Source: Anatilimnocola aggregata
Lineage (GTDB): Bacteria; Planctomycetota; Planctomycetia; Pirellulales; Pirellulaceae
Assembly (NCBI RefSeq): GCF_007747655.1
Contig: NZ_CP036274.1
Location: 6,510,001-6,574,000, forward strand
Direction of reading: 5' to 3'
DNA: 64,000 nucleotides
Part shown: positions 3,478 to 30,190 of the stretch, in pieces
How the letters are laid out: each line of letters opens with the position of its first letter
Position numbering within the stretch: the first letter of the stretch is position 1
The notes under the pieces: model-generated
Databases searched by the model: none
The model's input: only the letters and a program-made list of their open reading frames with translations
Told to the model about the DNA's origin: nothing
Made by a program: the position numbers and the translations under genes

Positions 3478-5376
3478 CTACGGCGCTGTTGCCGAGGCAG
3501 ACGATTGAGCTTCGCGGACCATCTCGGCGGCCCAGGGTTTGTCGCCGAATAACGTGATTACACTCTGGCGAATGGCTGCAGCCTCCGCGGGCTTGTCGGT
3601 CGCCAGTTCCGTAGCACGGTCTAATTGGCGGCGAATCAATTCCAGCTGATGTTTCTCGGTCTGCAGACCGGTCTCTTTCAGTTGTTCAATTTGTTTTTTT
3701 GCCAAATCCAAGCAGCGCGTCGCAATCAGTTCGTCGGCTTTTGTTGCCTTCGGATCTCGATCGCCGGCAAGCAGGGTAACAATGGCCTCGAACTGCTCGA
3801 GAGCAGCAACCGGATCGGTCTGAGCTGTTCGCTGAGCCTGCAAATAGAGCCGTTCCACGGGCAACAGGGCTTGCCCGTCAGCGCTGCGCCGGGTCCGACG
3901 ATCGAATTGCCGCTGGAGGCGATACAAGTCGAGTTCCTTTGCATAAGCTTGCATCTGCCCAGCGCGAGGATCGTCCGGAAATCGTTCGATAAAGTTCTCC
4001 AGGTCTGCTTCGACGACAATCAGCCCTTCCGTCCCATCGGCATCGACTGCAGCTTGAATTGTGGTGGCCAGGTGATCGGCCGATGGCTGACGCGTCATCG
4101 CAAATGCGAACAAGGCCAACGCCACGAGTCCGCTCAGAAGCACACCGGCCAGCTTGGCCCAATCGAGCTTGCTCTGTTGGGGAGCCTCGCGCGACTCGTA
4201 CTTGCGACGCAGTTCTTCCTCACTAACCGTTGTGAAGTGAGACGACTTGACGGGTGGTGCTAGCGCGTATTCATTTCCGCTCGGGGCATGCGTAGCTGCC
4301 GAAGGTTGAACTGCATTCTGGCTGGTGGCTTGAGTCGGCAGTCCCGCTAGCGGACTTGGGTTGGGACCCGTGATGAGCGTGGGGAGTTCGCCGCCGACCA
4401 ATGCCGAATGGGGACCACTGGCGGGCATATCGACCGTCGGCGACGAATTGAGGCCCCGGGAGGTCGGATGCGAGCGGGGAGTTGGCTGGTCTAACGGTTG
4501 CAAGGCAAAATCGTCGTCATCAACGGCTGGTGTGGGTGGCTCGATGCGAGTTTCGATCGAGAGCGCGTGCTCCATTGCCTTGAGGCGATTCGCCACCGCA
4601 ATCGCTGTGGGAATTCGGTTCGCCGCATCTTTCTCTAACAACTGCATGACGATGTTTTCAAGTTCGTCCGGCGCATCGGGAGCCAAACGCCGCAAGGCCA
4701 CCGGCTTTTCGTGCATCAGGTTGTGAATCACCTCCGTCAGCGTCTTGCCTGCAAACGGGGGACGACCGGTGATCAGCGCGTACAGAACACTTCCCAGGCT
4801 ATAAAGATCGCAGCGACTGGTGACCTGCTTGCCGCGCGCTTGCTCGGGCGCCATGTAGTCGGCGGTTCCCATCACACTGCCGTCAGCAGTGACACTCGTG
4901 CCGCCGTAGAGTTTGGCGATGCCAAAGTCGGTGAGCTTGACCTGATCGTCGTCGGTCAGCAGCAAGTTTGCAGGCTTCAGGTCGCGATGTACGACACCAC
5001 GATCGTGAGCATGCTTGAGGGCGAGTGCGATCTGAACACCCATGCGGGTCACGTCGCGCCACGTGAATCGCCTGCCGGCCGCCAATTCGTCCTGCAGGTT
5101 GCGCCCGGGAACATACTCCATCACATAGTAGAGGTGGCCGTCCTCCTCGCCATAGCCATGCAAACGGACAATGCCCGGGTGAAGCAGTTGCTTGAGCGTG
5201 TTGACTTCGGCCTTAAAGCGCTCGCGAAACAATAAATCGTCGGAGAGGTTCGGAGCCAGAACTTTCACGGCCGCCTTCTCGCCCGTCTCGCGATGAATGC
5301 CGAGATAGACCGCCCCCATGCCGCCGCGACCGAGCGTTTTTTCCAGTCGATAGGGGCCCAGTTGTTCCAAAGCCAT
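3478..5376 (-). CDS. Membrane-anchored Ser/Thr protein kinase (PknB-type)
   Basis: 632 residues. A complete Hanks-type kinase domain occupies residues ~9-270. It has a Gly-rich loop GRGGMGAV (16-23), K38, the HRDLKPANLL catalytic loop (H130-R131-D132), DFG at 150-152 and APEQ at 176-179. A Pro/Ser/Thr-rich linker (~280-400) leads to a single membrane helix at ~408-427, and the outer ~200 residues are helical with no PASTA or WD repeats. This is the usual planctomycete layout: cytoplasmic kinase, one membrane pass, external sensor. The next gene on the same strand encodes an FHA/coiled-coil membrane protein whose Ser/Thr-rich body could be a substrate. All kinase residues are intact, so activity is likely. 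Confidence 0.95.
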   Translation of the reverse strand: MALEQLGPYRLEKTLGRGGMGAVYLGIHRETGEKAAVKVLAPNLSDDLLFRERFKAEVNTLKQLLHPGIVRLHGYGEEDGHLYYVMEYVPGRNLQDELAAGRRFTWRDVTRMGVQIALALKHAHDRGVVHRDLKPANLLLTDDDQVKLTDFGIAKLYGGTSVTADGSVMGTADYMAPEQARGKQVTSRCDLYSLGSVLYALITGRPPFAGKTLTEVIHNLMHEKPVALRRLAPDAPDELENIVMQLLEKDAANRIPTAIAVANRLKAMEHALSIETRIEPPTPAVDDDDFALQPLDQPTPRSHPTSRGLNSSPTVDMPASGPHSALVGGELPTLITGPNPSPLAGLPTQATSQNAVQPSAATHAPSGNEYALAPPVKSSHFTTVSEEELRRKYESREAPQQSKLDWAKLAGVLLSGLVALALFAFAMTRQPSADHLATTIQAAVDADGTEGLIVVEADLENFIERFPDDPRAGQMQAYAKELDLYRLQRQFDRRTRRSADGQALLPVERLYLQAQRTAQTDPVAALEQFEAIVTLLAGDRDPKATKADELIATRCLDLAKKQIEQLKETGLQTEKHQLELIRRQLDRATELATDKPAEAAAIRQSVITLFGDKPWAAEMVREAQSSASATAP

Positions 5377-27322: not shown

Positions 27323-28756
27323 TTATTCCGTATCGCTTGAATAGATTTCCGGCACGAGCAGATATTCGCTACCTTCGGCAATACTCGTTGGCTGAAACGC
27401 AGTCACATTCAGCCGCTCGTTGAGCGCAGCCAAACCTTGACAGAAGACAAGGCCAGTCGGACAGCGATCACGAACGACGACAGCCACGTCTTGTTCGCTT
27501 TCGGCAAAATGCTCCATCATTTCGTTTAAGGAGGTTGTTTCATCAAACTTGGCAAATTCGGTCTGCATGACATGCCGCACCAGCCGTACCGATGCCTGCC
27601 GCGGACGACTTCCCTGAGAACGAACATTGGCCAGTTTAGTAGCTGTGATTAAACCTAAAAGTCGCCCTTCGAGATCAACGACCGGCAACGTGGCCAATTG
27701 AGTTTGATCGAAAAGGGCCAGTCCTTGATCGACCGTTTCATCCGCGCCGATCAGCACGGGGCAAGGAATCATCACATCGCGGGCGACGGTCGTTGCAAAC
27801 AACTGCCCTTCGGATGCCAACTCAGTCCAGCTTTGCTGATCTTCGTCCACCTCGTCGCTATGGACCACGCAGTTGCGACCCGAGACCTTGGCCAACTGCA
27901 GCGCGGTTATGGCCCGTTGCAGGGCGATGTCGGCTGGCTCGTCGGTTTGCACCGCAGTAAAGCCCAAGCTGGCGGTGACTTGCACCGAAGTGCCATTCGC
28001 CTGTAGCGAAGTCGCCTGCAATGACTTTAGCCATCCGCTGGCGAGAGACTCGGCCGCAGCGTCGTCGTGTGCGGCGAAGAGTATCGCCAGTCGATTATCG
28101 TGGAGCACGCCCGGGAGCGCCGTTGCCGGGAGCGCTTTCTTGATCGATTGCGCCGCGCCACGGAGCAGTTCGCGATAGGCAATCAACCCTTGCACGCGGG
28201 CAAAGCGGCCAAACGAATCGAAATCCAGCACTGCGACGTAGGGGGGAGTTGCCCTGGCTTTTTCTGCGGCAGAGGCCTGCAACCACGGTTTCCACTGTTT
28301 GAGCCAGGCATTTCGTTCGGCTAAGCCCGTGATGACATCGAGCCCGTTCTGCTCGGCGAGGCGGCGTTCGTATTCCAGCACACGTGCGCCGGCGCGTAGG
28401 CGCGCCAGCAATTCCCCATAGACAACGTCGCGTGCGAGAAAGTCGTCGAAGCCGGCTTCTAACGATTCAGTAAGTGCGGCGACCTCAGGAAGTTCTACCA
28501 GGAGCATGCAATAGGTGAAAACCTGCTGGGCTCCAAGCCTGCGTACTTGTCGACAAAGTTGCTTGTTCGCCAGGCTCTCTGTCGAACCATCGACGAGCAG
28601 GAAGTCCGGCGGATTTGCTTCCGCGGAGGCCAGAGTCTGCGCTTCGTCGCTCGCTTGCCGCACTTCGTAGCCAAAGATATCGAGAAATTTCGACATCCGC
28701 CGCAGCAAGGTGCGATCGGCCGACACAATCAAAATGGAGAAAGGGCGAGCTGACAT
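27323..28756 (-). CDS. Receiver-degenerate GGDEF-CBS signalling protein
   Basis: 477 residues. A response-regulator receiver domain spans 1-125 with a likely phosphoacceptor D56 (FLLVDG). A GGDEF-like fold follows at ~135-300, but the signature GG(D/E)EF is replaced by LHDNRLAIL (218-226), so no cyclase activity is expected. A CBS pair lies at ~325-455 (VARDVMIPCPVLIGADETVDQ, LPVVDLEGRLLGLITATKL). CBS pairs bind adenine nucleotides. It is divergent from an FHA-EAL protein that is also degenerate, and the two share a 285-base promoter region. Function is inferred to be regulatory, by binding rather than catalysis. Confidence 0.82.
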   Translation of the reverse strand: MSARPFSILIVSADRTLLRRMSKFLDIFGYEVRQASDEAQTLASAEANPPDFLLVDGSTESLANKQLCRQVRRLGAQQVFTYCMLLVELPEVAALTESLEAGFDDFLARDVVYGELLARLRAGARVLEYERRLAEQNGLDVITGLAERNAWLKQWKPWLQASAAEKARATPPYVAVLDFDSFGRFARVQGLIAYRELLRGAAQSIKKALPATALPGVLHDNRLAILFAAHDDAAAESLASGWLKSLQATSLQANGTSVQVTASLGFTAVQTDEPADIALQRAITALQLAKVSGRNCVVHSDEVDEDQQSWTELASEGQLFATTVARDVMIPCPVLIGADETVDQGLALFDQTQLATLPVVDLEGRLLGLITATKLANVRSQGSRPRQASVRLVRHVMQTEFAKFDETTSLNEMMEHFAESEQDVAVVVRDRCPTGLVFCQGLAALNERLNVTAFQPTSIAEGSEYLLVPEIYSSDTE

Positions 28757-29041
28757 CGGTGGCTTTCACCCAAGGGTGCAAAGGGGGCAACGCCAGGCGC
28801 GAACACACGTAGATCGCGCGGAAGCATGGCCTCTGGCACAAACTTAGGTTACAGATTCGGTGCTGCCTTAGCCGCGCCAAATATTTCTCAGCAAGATAGC
28901 GGCTTCTTGTCAATTCATGACGTACGTTTCAGTTGGCTCGCGCTGCCGAAGCGGTGTCATTGTCGGCAATGCGTAGTCAAATTCGACAGGCTTGGTCGAC
29001 CCAGATCCAAACCACTGGTCGCAAACCACTGCGGGGCTGTC

Positions 29042-30190
29042 ATGCGAACGAAGATTCTATTGCCGGAAACAAAGCTATCTCCTTATCTCGAGCGTGTTGG
29101 GGGGACGCCCGGCGAGCCCGTTGTGCTCGAGAAGTTCCCTTTTACCCTGGGGCGCAACGAGTCGTGCGACTATCAGGTCCCTTCAACGCGAGTCTCTCGC
29201 GAACATGCCGCCATCAATAAAGATGGCCGCCACTTTCGGATCAAAGACCTGGGCAGCACGAACGGCACGCTCTTGAACGGCAAGAAGGTCGCCGAAGCGC
29301 TACTAAGTGACGGCGATCTGCTCACTTTTGCCGATGCCGAGTTCTGCTTCCGCACGCCTTGTAACGAATCAGCTCGCGTCACAGTGACCCACGTGATGGA
29401 CGGCGGCTCGGTTGCCGCCCACGACAACGATCTGCAGTCCGAAGACCGCGCTGCCCGCGATTTTATCCTGGCCGTCCGCTCATTGAACGAAGGCTTACTC
29501 CATCGAGGCCTGCGCACCCGCTTTCAGCCTGTTGTGGAATTGGCGACCGGGCAAGCCATCGGTTACGAGGCGCTCCGGCGAATCGAGAACCACTCGGGCG
29601 AAGTCCCTGCAGGCGAACGAGTCCTGCAAAGCGTCGATTGCCGGCTGACGGAGCGTTGGCATCAGTTGCATCGCCTGCTGGCCGCCGAACAAGCCGCTGA
29701 AGCCACGGGCGCGAACCTGCTGTTCTTGAATCTGCAGCCCGCTGAAGTCGGTGCCGATGGACTTCCCGAGACGTTGGCTCAACTGCAAAGTCGCTTGTCG
29801 GGCAAAAAGCTGATCGCTGAGATTCCTCACTCTGCGGTCGTCGATATTCCGTTCTTCCGCGACTTCCTCAGCCGGCTACGGGAACTGAATGTCGGCGTCT
29901 GCTATGCCGGCTTCAGTAGTGGGCAGAATCAGGTGCGGGCCCACGAGCAATTTGCGCCAGACTATTTGCAACTGGCTCCCGCCTTGGCACGCGGCGTCGA
30001 TCGCAGCACGCAGCGGCAACAGCAGATCAAGGCGCTCGTTGAAGCCGCCGTTGCAGCCGGTTGTAAGATTATAGCAACTGGAGTGCACAGCGAAAACGAA
30101 GCCCAGACCTGCCGCGAACTCGGCTGTCAACTCGCTCAAGGCGACCACTACGGTCGACCTCAAACAATGCAGTGGGCGTCACTTGCGTAA
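29042..30190 (+). CDS. FHA-degenerate EAL domain signalling protein
   Basis: 382 residues from ATG 29042, the first Met before the FHA fold. The FHA domain (~25-105) is fully canonical: GR at 37-38, SREH at 52-55, STNG at 72-75. An EAL-type domain covers ~155-375. It keeps the EAL motif (176-178), N230 and E260, and a QG at 366-367. The DDFGTG metal loop is YAGFSSG (288-294), the catalytic Lys region is LQLAP, and the late Glu is lost (ATGVH, 345-349). It is unlikely to hydrolyse c-di-GMP and may instead bind it or a partner. FHA suggests recruitment to a phosphothreonine protein. Confidence 0.82.
   Translation: MRTKILLPETKLSPYLERVGGTPGEPVVLEKFPFTLGRNESCDYQVPSTRVSREHAAINKDGRHFRIKDLGSTNGTLLNGKKVAEALLSDGDLLTFADAEFCFRTPCNESARVTVTHVMDGGSVAAHDNDLQSEDRAARDFILAVRSLNEGLLHRGLRTRFQPVVELATGQAIGYEALRRIENHSGEVPAGERVLQSVDCRLTERWHQLHRLLAAEQAAEATGANLLFLNLQPAEVGADGLPETLAQLQSRLSGKKLIAEIPHSAVVDIPFFRDFLSRLRELNVGVCYAGFSSGQNQVRAHEQFAPDYLQLAPALARGVDRSTQRQQQIKALVEAAVAAGCKIIATGVHSENEAQTCRELGCQLAQGDHYGRPQTMQWASLA

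Follow-up and report, generated by a model that had tools for sequence, protein, structure and literature searches.

A divergent pair of pseudoenzyme-like genes in Pirellulaceae and the kinase-tubulin gene that often lies beside it

What can proteins with the folds of cyclic di-GMP (c-di-GMP) enzymes be for once their catalytic residues are gone? The question is raised by two divergent genes of the planctomycete Anatilimnocola aggregata (family Pirellulaceae; genome G000), found in a window of 64,000 nucleotides (contig NZ_CP036274.1, positions 6,510,001 to 6,574,000 of the forward strand). Gene A (27323-28756 of the window, minus strand, 477 amino acids) encodes a receiver, a degenerate GGDEF domain and a CBS pair, and gene B (29042-30190, plus strand, 382 amino acids) encodes an FHA domain and a degenerate EAL domain. 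An original prediction, made from the DNA letters, had described both proteins as looking like binders rather than enzymes and had suggested that they could make up a switch gated by phosphothreonine and by a nucleotide. The observation was confirmed and the interpretation is partly supported, being half right. In the favoured reading, which is held to be somewhat probable on the sequences at hand, A and B would be co-evolving pseudoenzymes, with B reading the phosphothreonine marks of a kinase-tubulin protein (KT) and with the EAL and GGDEF domains serving as binding scaffolds.

Catalytic residues and the phosphothreonine pocket

Both genes were identified from open reading frames, Pfam and orthologs. 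Response_reg (34.5 bits), GGDEF (45.8 bits) and CBS (45.0 bits, in two stretches) in A, and FHA (69.0 bits) and EAL (116.3 bits) in B, all scored above their gathering scores. The coordinates confirmed the divergent arrangement, with an intergenic region of 285 bases (28757-29041). A longer reading frame for B runs from 28826 (454 amino acids); the start at 29042 is supported, since all 27 B-type sequences align in register from that Met (M-x-T). Proteins P0001 and P0002 were searched against 149 genomes and profiles A1 and A2 against 241, A within family genomes only, and the loci were then read. A and B were found adjacent and divergent in 26 of the 241 family genomes, so that the original prediction, which was to fall if gene order was not conserved in relatives, stands on this point.

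Alignments were made of 27 B sequences, 24 FHA-EAL paralogs of three families (group C), 26 A sequences and eight REC-GGDEF-CBS paralogs (group D); the B counts out of 27 include G327, which has no EAL letters, and G324, which is cut. Nine EAL positions (Gln, Glu, Asn, Glu, an Asp pair, Lys, a late Glu and Gln) are intact in all 24 group C paralogs. Unlike these, the B proteins retain Q162 in 8 of 27, E176 in 11, N230 in 6, E260 in 12, the two loop Asp in 4 each, Lys310 in 6, the late Glu in 2 and Gln366 in 10, with R180 present in 11. A full c-di-GMP phosphodiesterase site occurs in no B, and single proteins keep from 0 to 7 of the nine positions. None is left in the B of genus g2 and of G264, and none or one in that of genus g3; of the 26 B in which EAL letters are present, 10 are down to 0 or 1, and these include the eight g3 rows. 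The window's B keeps five. Its EAL domain (residues 146-373; 29477-30160, plus strand; Pfam and fold matches to EAL structures) has the EAL letters at 176-178 and retains Q162, E176, L178, R180, N230, E260 and Q366, whereas AGFS stands in place of the DDFG loop, Gln310 replaces the catalytic Lys and His349 the late Glu; EAL, N230, E260 and these three losses are as had been described. In contrast to this erosion, the pocket of the FHA domain (residues 35-96; 29144-29329, plus strand; Pfam and alignment) is invariant, with G37, R38, S52, R53, H55, T73, N74 and N79 found in 27 of 27 B. The domain has the residues by which a phosphothreonine reader is predicted (G-R, S-x-x-H and N).

Structural modelling, which had been put forward as a check, agreed with the domain calls. 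The AlphaFold model of B, made with 22 relatives, folds as an EAL protein at a predicted local distance difference test (pLDDT) of 82.8, and its best PDB matches are the EAL domains of MorA and PdeA, also of LapD and FimX. The model of A, made with four relatives (pLDDT 72), best matches PleD, WspR and GGDEF domains.

These data bear on a first rival explanation, a LapD- or FimX-like receptor role for the pair, in which the EAL domain of B would bind uncut c-di-GMP and signal through A or the FHA domain. The residues kept in the window's B speak for it, as do two further residues of the B of G299, its Lys and the first Asp of the loop (seven of nine positions), the matches to LapD and FimX, and the canonical GGDEF proteins of the genome, which could supply c-di-GMP. 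Counting A, the window genome gave ten matches to GGDEF, of which one falls under the cut-off, and the proteins of this genome include a REC-GGDEF-CBS paralog with GGEEF. Since E176, N230, R180 and Q162 were lost from most B while the FHA pocket stayed invariant, and with 0 or 1 position left in ten B, c-di-GMP binding is unlikely as a role common to all B, and the receptor explanation is held to be unlikely; binding may persist in the window's clade, to judge from the residues kept there. The same losses disfavour A and B as c-di-GMP enzymes, or a receptor role throughout the family.

The GGDEF domain of A (residues 139-295; 27872-28342, minus strand; Pfam and fold matches to PleD, WspR and GGDEF domains) carries LHDNRLAIL at 218-226 in place of its signature; HDNRL (219-223; 28088-28102, minus strand, from the alignment) replaces GGDEF, with Arg222 at the position of its Glu. 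The GG[DE]EF signature was found in 0 of 26 A versus 6 of 8 group D paralogs, and position 222 is Arg in 20 of the 26 A, Gln in four, Cys in one and Asn in one. At position 213, the Asp of the GGDEF inhibitory site (RxxD) is present in 0 of 26 A versus 8 of 8 group D paralogs. In the receiver (residues 8-120; 28397-28735, minus strand; Pfam and residue alignment), D56 is kept in 25 of 26 A, the first acidic residue is gone from all 26, and Thr87 and Lys109 are found in 6 and 13; the window's A has D56 with Ser12, Val87 and Arg109. The residue set of a phosphorylatable response regulator (acidic pair, Asp, Thr/Ser, Lys) is incomplete. Residues and Pfam thus agree with what had been reported of A, namely the receiver with D56, the replaced signature and the CBS pair. 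A and B both look like pseudoenzymes from their residues, and the predicted look of binders rather than enzymes was upheld by the absence of the GGDEF signature from all 26 A and of a full EAL site from every B. Erosion is among the strongest in genus g3 (L160-L167), for A and B alike: a stretch of 11 alignment columns at the metal-binding strand of GGDEF is gone from A, and the EAL motif of B reads WCP.

The CBS pair of A consists of repeat 1 (residues 325-377; 27626-27784, minus strand; Pfam) and repeat 2 (about residues 394-450; 27407-27577, minus strand, limits approximate, from the second Pfam stretch and the alignment). In a second rival explanation, it would bind AMP, ATP or a cyclic dinucleotide and thereby gate B. 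The Pfam score above threshold and the linker F-x-x-T-x-A-R-D-[VI]-M, which precedes the pair in many A, are consistent with such a nucleotide-gated switch. A stretch like the GVLSEKD of the group D paralogs, whose Ser/Thr and Asp we take to be the CBS ribose-binding motif, is however replaced by GLITATK, GLLPEER or GVVTLPQ in most A, although the eight A of genus g3 retain a similar stretch, GLIRTDD or alike (all read by eye), and the inhibitory-site Asp is gone from every A. Nucleotide gating is very unlikely on this evidence, and as a conserved role it was not borne out, given the loss of that Asp from A and the counts of E176, N230 and E260 in B.

The pair could also be two unconnected relics that decay side by side, and in fact the catalytic residues were lost in many different ways across lineages. 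Between G000 and its congener G296, the ratio of non-synonymous to synonymous substitution (dN/dS) was 0.15 for A (0.22 for its GGDEF part) and 0.03 for B, values that are rough because synonymous divergence was high or saturated (about 1.5 or more); the EAL part alone could not be estimated. On these rates, the pair is under purifying selection. Chance decay does not account for the degeneration, since it is common to the orthologs and comes with such low ratios. With the pair kept in 26 genomes, the FHA pocket invariant and the distances of the two proteins linked as described below, the relic explanation is scarcely credible, and decay of A and B was ruled out by the substitution ratios and the conserved pairing.

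A kinase-tubulin gene beside the pair

Whose phosphothreonine might B read? Clustering of the neighbouring proteins revealed one of about 1,000-1,200 amino acids, KT, encoded directly after B on the same strand, with Pkinase and Tubulin_2 (FtsZl1) of Pfam in six examples and in the window genome's copy. All 33 KTs compared carry the kinase motifs intact (glycine loop, Lys, HLDxKPxN and DFG), and the tubulin-like G-rich loop is mostly intact among them. Linkage was counted among the matches listed, which cover 132 of 152 genomes with FHA-EAL and 146 of 160 with KT. Among these, 26 of 27 A/B genomes have KT (G263 counted, G327 not listed), and B and KT stand in tandem on one strand, within 551 bases, in 22 of 26 A/B genomes. 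FtsZl1/Tubulin_2 is therefore part of the A/B locus in those 22. The exceptions are G000, G296 and G299, with KT elsewhere, and G324, in which B ends at the contig edge. In the window genome, the one full-length KT, an ortholog, lies unlinked at 1734544-1738086 of the genome, 4.8 Mb from the pair and so out of sight of the original prediction. Of the gated switch that had been predicted, the phosphothreonine part is thus supported, through the invariant FHA pocket and the kinase gene after B in most pair genomes, and the nucleotide part is not.

A linkage of FHA-EAL and KT extends to genomes that lack the pair. Among the matches listed, 68 of 88 non-pair genomes have an FHA-EAL gene no more than 4.5 kb from KT, divergent in 67; intact EAL residues were checked in the 24 group C paralogs, and one of the 88 genomes, G362, has a degenerate FHA-EAL. 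Twelve paralog loci of the family were opened, and FHA-EAL, an AAA-like ATPase and KT were found in that order in nine, the other three being those of G000, G336 and G311; no A gene was labelled in the 12. In named genomes, KT was nearby in 10 of 18 paralog loci, in several orders, of which at least two are contigs already counted. Group C paralogs thus resemble B in architecture and often in their KT and AAA-like neighbours, but differ in keeping the EAL positions in 24 of 24 and usually in gene order. The only other EAL protein of the window genome is an intact FHA-EAL paralog (7221603-7222604), which lies near a kinase-WD40 gene (L103:2049-5498, L103:6553-7719) and not near KT.

Distances between proteins were compared in 23 genomes with A, B, KT and threonyl-tRNA synthetase (ThrRS), and in a thinned set of 14. 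The A-B correlation was 0.94, or 0.90 once the ThrRS distance was corrected for, in the 23 genomes, and 0.92 or 0.905 in the 14; in each set, none of 999 permutations, which ignore relatedness, was as high. After the same correction, A-KT correlated at 0.84 (23 genomes) and 0.82 (14), and B-KT at 0.86 and 0.81.

A further rival explanation is that A and B cooperate with another kinase, or with a histidine-kinase phosphorelay through D56, and that the link to KT is historical. D56 in 25 of 26 A is consistent with it, and so is the window genome itself, in which KT is unlinked and 36 proteins match the KT query, KT among them, so that other kinases could feed the FHA domain of B. Yet the receiver is eroded at its acidic pair, its Thr and its Lys, and the B-KT correlations and the position of KT beside B in most pair loci argue against a link of the past. 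This explanation is judged rather improbable.

In the FHA-EAL tree, a branch supported at 100 sets the 24 group C rows apart. In the KT tree, G000, G296 and G299, whose KTs are unlinked, fall together with G301, whose KT is B-linked, at 100 in the Shimodaira-Hasegawa-like approximate likelihood ratio test (SH-aLRT), and the B proteins of the four genomes are likewise grouped, with support of 99. The KTs of the window genome, G296 and G299 (L329, L339, L340), all off the B locus, cluster together at SH-aLRT 86, which makes a single move in their common line possible.

The AAA-like ATPase gene has a weaker tie to the pair than KT. It stands beside A in 15 of 26 pair loci and also occurs in paralog loci, where it lies between FHA-EAL and KT in nine of the nine FHA-EAL-near-KT loci opened; matches (E 1e-20) were found in all 27 A/B genomes, in one to three copies each. 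The protein of G121 has the P-loop stretch FLYGAPGNGKTT, and the best match in G000 is unlinked, at 3265980-3267302.

A proposed phosphothreonine switch and known systems

In much of the family, a gene for a kinase and one for an FHA protein are neighbours, and the FHA pocket is the best-conserved part of B; hence FHA-EAL is proposed as the reader of KT. The relative age of the units, the FHA ligand, the contact of A with B and an action on KT are inferred. The older unit would be an intact-looking FHA-EAL with the AAA-like ATPase and KT, still found in much of the family, and in the window's lineage the c-di-GMP chemistry would have been lost and A, a dead cyclase, added. KT, taken to be a cytoplasmic Ser/Thr kinase joined to an FtsZ/tubulin-like GTPase, would phosphorylate Thr residues, for which the candidate sites are Thr3 and Thr116 of B, flanking the FHA domain, and a Thr cluster in the KT linker of some lineages. 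The FHA pocket would then bind a phosphothreonine mark within B and close the protein, as in GarA and OdhI; alternatively, it would bind a mark on KT or a client, resulting in recruitment. B through its degenerate EAL domain, and A through its receiver, CBS pair and degenerate GGDEF domain, could provide the surfaces that join the two proteins, and the state of the pair would be passed on to the tubulin-like polymer.

The two Thr motifs are invariant. Thr3, in M-x-T-x-x-[LMFI] (29048-29050, plus strand), and Thr116, in T116-x-x-M119 directly after the FHA domain (29387-29398, plus strand), were each found in 27 of 27 B, and they lie in the low-confidence stretches of the model (1-10 and 108-131) that flank the FHA domain. 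Group C paralogs have a Thr near the second motif (23 of 24, Thr114 column) but without T-x-x-M. Two invariant Thr motifs beside an FHA domain suggest, by analogy, a self-binding switch like GarA/OdhI, FHA proteins in which phosphorylation of an N-terminal Thr in the same chain reportedly works the switch. B is like these in matching the NCBIfam OdhI model (5.7e-9; 35.9 bits, under the family cut-off of 200), in the match of its FHA domain to GarA and OdhI chains of the PDB, and in the conserved Thr motif of a low-confidence tail adjoining the FHA domain. It is unlike them in its degenerate EAL of about 240 residues and in having two Thr motifs. In the linker between kinase and tubulin of 13 KTs (those of G264, g2 and g3; L098-L102, L160-L167), a DTKTI stretch is conserved, which could be a further candidate FHA ligand; it is missing from the KT linkers of G000 and G296.

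Precedents exist for the scaffolds as well. EAL and GGDEF folds serve as binding surfaces in LapD, FimX and YdiV, and LapD, FimX, YdiV and PopA use non-catalytic EAL or GGDEF folds as binding modules, with, as far as is known, both domains in one chain or no FHA. A and B resemble LapD and FimX through the match of the B model to their EAL domains, but differ from all four in that the domains are split over two divergent genes, with FHA as a reader and with a kinase-tubulin gene nearby in relatives.

The kinase-tubulin fusion itself was already known. In the FtsZl1 family (Pfam Tubulin_2), Makarova and Koonin (2010; PMC2875224) noted that four planctomycete proteins carry a kinase at the N-terminus; they predicted a role in membrane remodelling and reported vWA, kinase, GTPase and OmpA-like gene neighbours. 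KT shares the Pkinase and Tubulin_2 make-up. The FHA-EAL and pseudo-GGDEF partners appear to be new, as far as the available text of that paper goes: they are not described in it, FHA is absent from its main text, and its only match to 'EAL' is part of an author name (PMC2875224). A 2024 paper (PMC11032199), in its available part, states that kinases of the phylum which are solely cytoplasmic have a tubulin-like domain more often than any other partner, and that this domain is absent from the organism of its title. Conflict systems with tubulins, FHA, receiver and inactive cyclase-like domains, some in planctomycetes, were described in 2020 (PMC7159879, available part). Such tubulin-containing NTPase systems are alike in bringing tubulin homologs, FHA, receiver and GGDEF domains together in modular systems; they are unlike the present one in that, in the accessible text, the tubulin is accompanied in firmicutes and actinobacteria by genes for GTPases, HSP70 or vWA proteins, FHA is an effector domain, and no FHA-EAL with a kinase-tubulin protein appears. 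An FHA-EAL partner of a kinase-tubulin protein is not named in the accessible text of any of the three papers, 'FHA' was not found in that of a paper mentioning GGDEF, EAL and planctomycetes (PMC1183210), and no description of 'FHA-EAL', or of FHA with degenerate GGDEF and EAL, was found in the open literature searched. A defence role was considered and may yet apply: PADLOC models gave no match to A or B at E 1e-4, the matches of KT (PD-T4-6, mad6) fall for the most part on its kinase domain, and the AAA-like protein matched IetA over a short stretch.

On a wider scale, a family circuit on a tubulin-like polymer can be tentatively proposed, plausible but rather to be doubted, in which KT marks, FHA-EAL reads and the AAA-like ATPase remodels, with a dead-scaffold switch in some lineages. 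These planctomycetes are not known to possess FtsZ, so that the KT/FHA-EAL circuit could have a part in remodelling membranes or even in division.

Several points weigh against the proposal that A and B form a phosphothreonine switch with KT and against the circuit built on it. The B of G299 is the least eroded, keeping 7 of 9 EAL positions, so the loss there is only partial. Gene neighbourhood is context and does not show binding, and the link to KT rests on orthology in the window genome, its congener and G299, in which KT is unlinked. At FHA-EAL loci of other families, a full KT was found in 0 of 8, with one weak kinase match. Certainty in the distance correlations is overstated by permutations blind to relatedness, and a change of rate across a whole lineage could raise the A-B-KT values further. 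B is not one clade in the FHA-EAL tree, being split only by the long-branch row G362, with two changes on the tree, and the KTs of G441 and G343, next to a canonical FHA-EAL, fall among B-linked KTs, so the change of gene arrangement was not one clean split. The Thr3 and Thr116 motifs are candidates by conservation, the model of A is only moderate at its pLDDT of 72, and AAA families of Pfam match the AAA-like protein only below gathering scores. A direct role of FtsZl1 in cell division was held unlikely, since FtsZl1 usually occurs alongside FtsZ (PMC2875224, available text).

If the wider circuit is real, a second-messenger module would have been rebuilt as a protein-binding switch. The A/B/KT set brings together subjects that are mostly treated separately, namely Ser/Thr kinase signalling of the eukaryote-like type, the folds of c-di-GMP proteins and a tubulin-like family, and FHA-EAL proteins with and without an active site offer a natural comparison. 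As a conserved and constrained pair of apparently dead enzymes, A and B give a handle on planctomycete tubulin-like polymers, in the form of baits and Thr sites.

Distribution and surroundings of the pair

The 26 pair genomes are the window genome, G296, G299, G301, G307, G341, G285, G276, G327, G248, G266, G264, G349, G323, G121, G366, G324, G305 and eight of genus g3 (G402, G356, G382, G403, G391, G333, G205, G371). In a ninth g3 genome, G401 (68% complete), neither A nor B was found. The A-B gap was 221-480 bases in the 15 genomes measured; a contig end cuts B in G327 and G324, and A in G305 and G285. A 27th genome, G263, has A and B on the same strand, with about 62 kb between them. G362 (L168) has a B-like degenerate FHA-EAL, and A was not found there, a possible independent loss of catalysis. 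For B, a search of 246 genomes sampled from the phylum (E 1e-20) gave relatives in 11. Named genomes were scanned with the B profile and an FHA-motif pattern, too general in that it drew many plain FHA proteins, and 22 of the 80 loci listed were used (L180-L201); a further A/B pair with KT after B was found in the named metagenome-assembled genome L182 (Rhodopirellula sp.).

The intergenic region gave no sigma-70-like or terminator-like site in a consensus scan, which is weak evidence. Other neighbours in the window were rejected as partners of the pair: several are shared by G296 (clusters c9-c12), but ThrRS lies about 118 kb off there, and ThrRS is not beside the pair in 24 other genomes with a ThrRS match, with no match in G299. 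Another Ser/Thr kinase domain is encoded within the window, at 4609-5367 on the minus strand.

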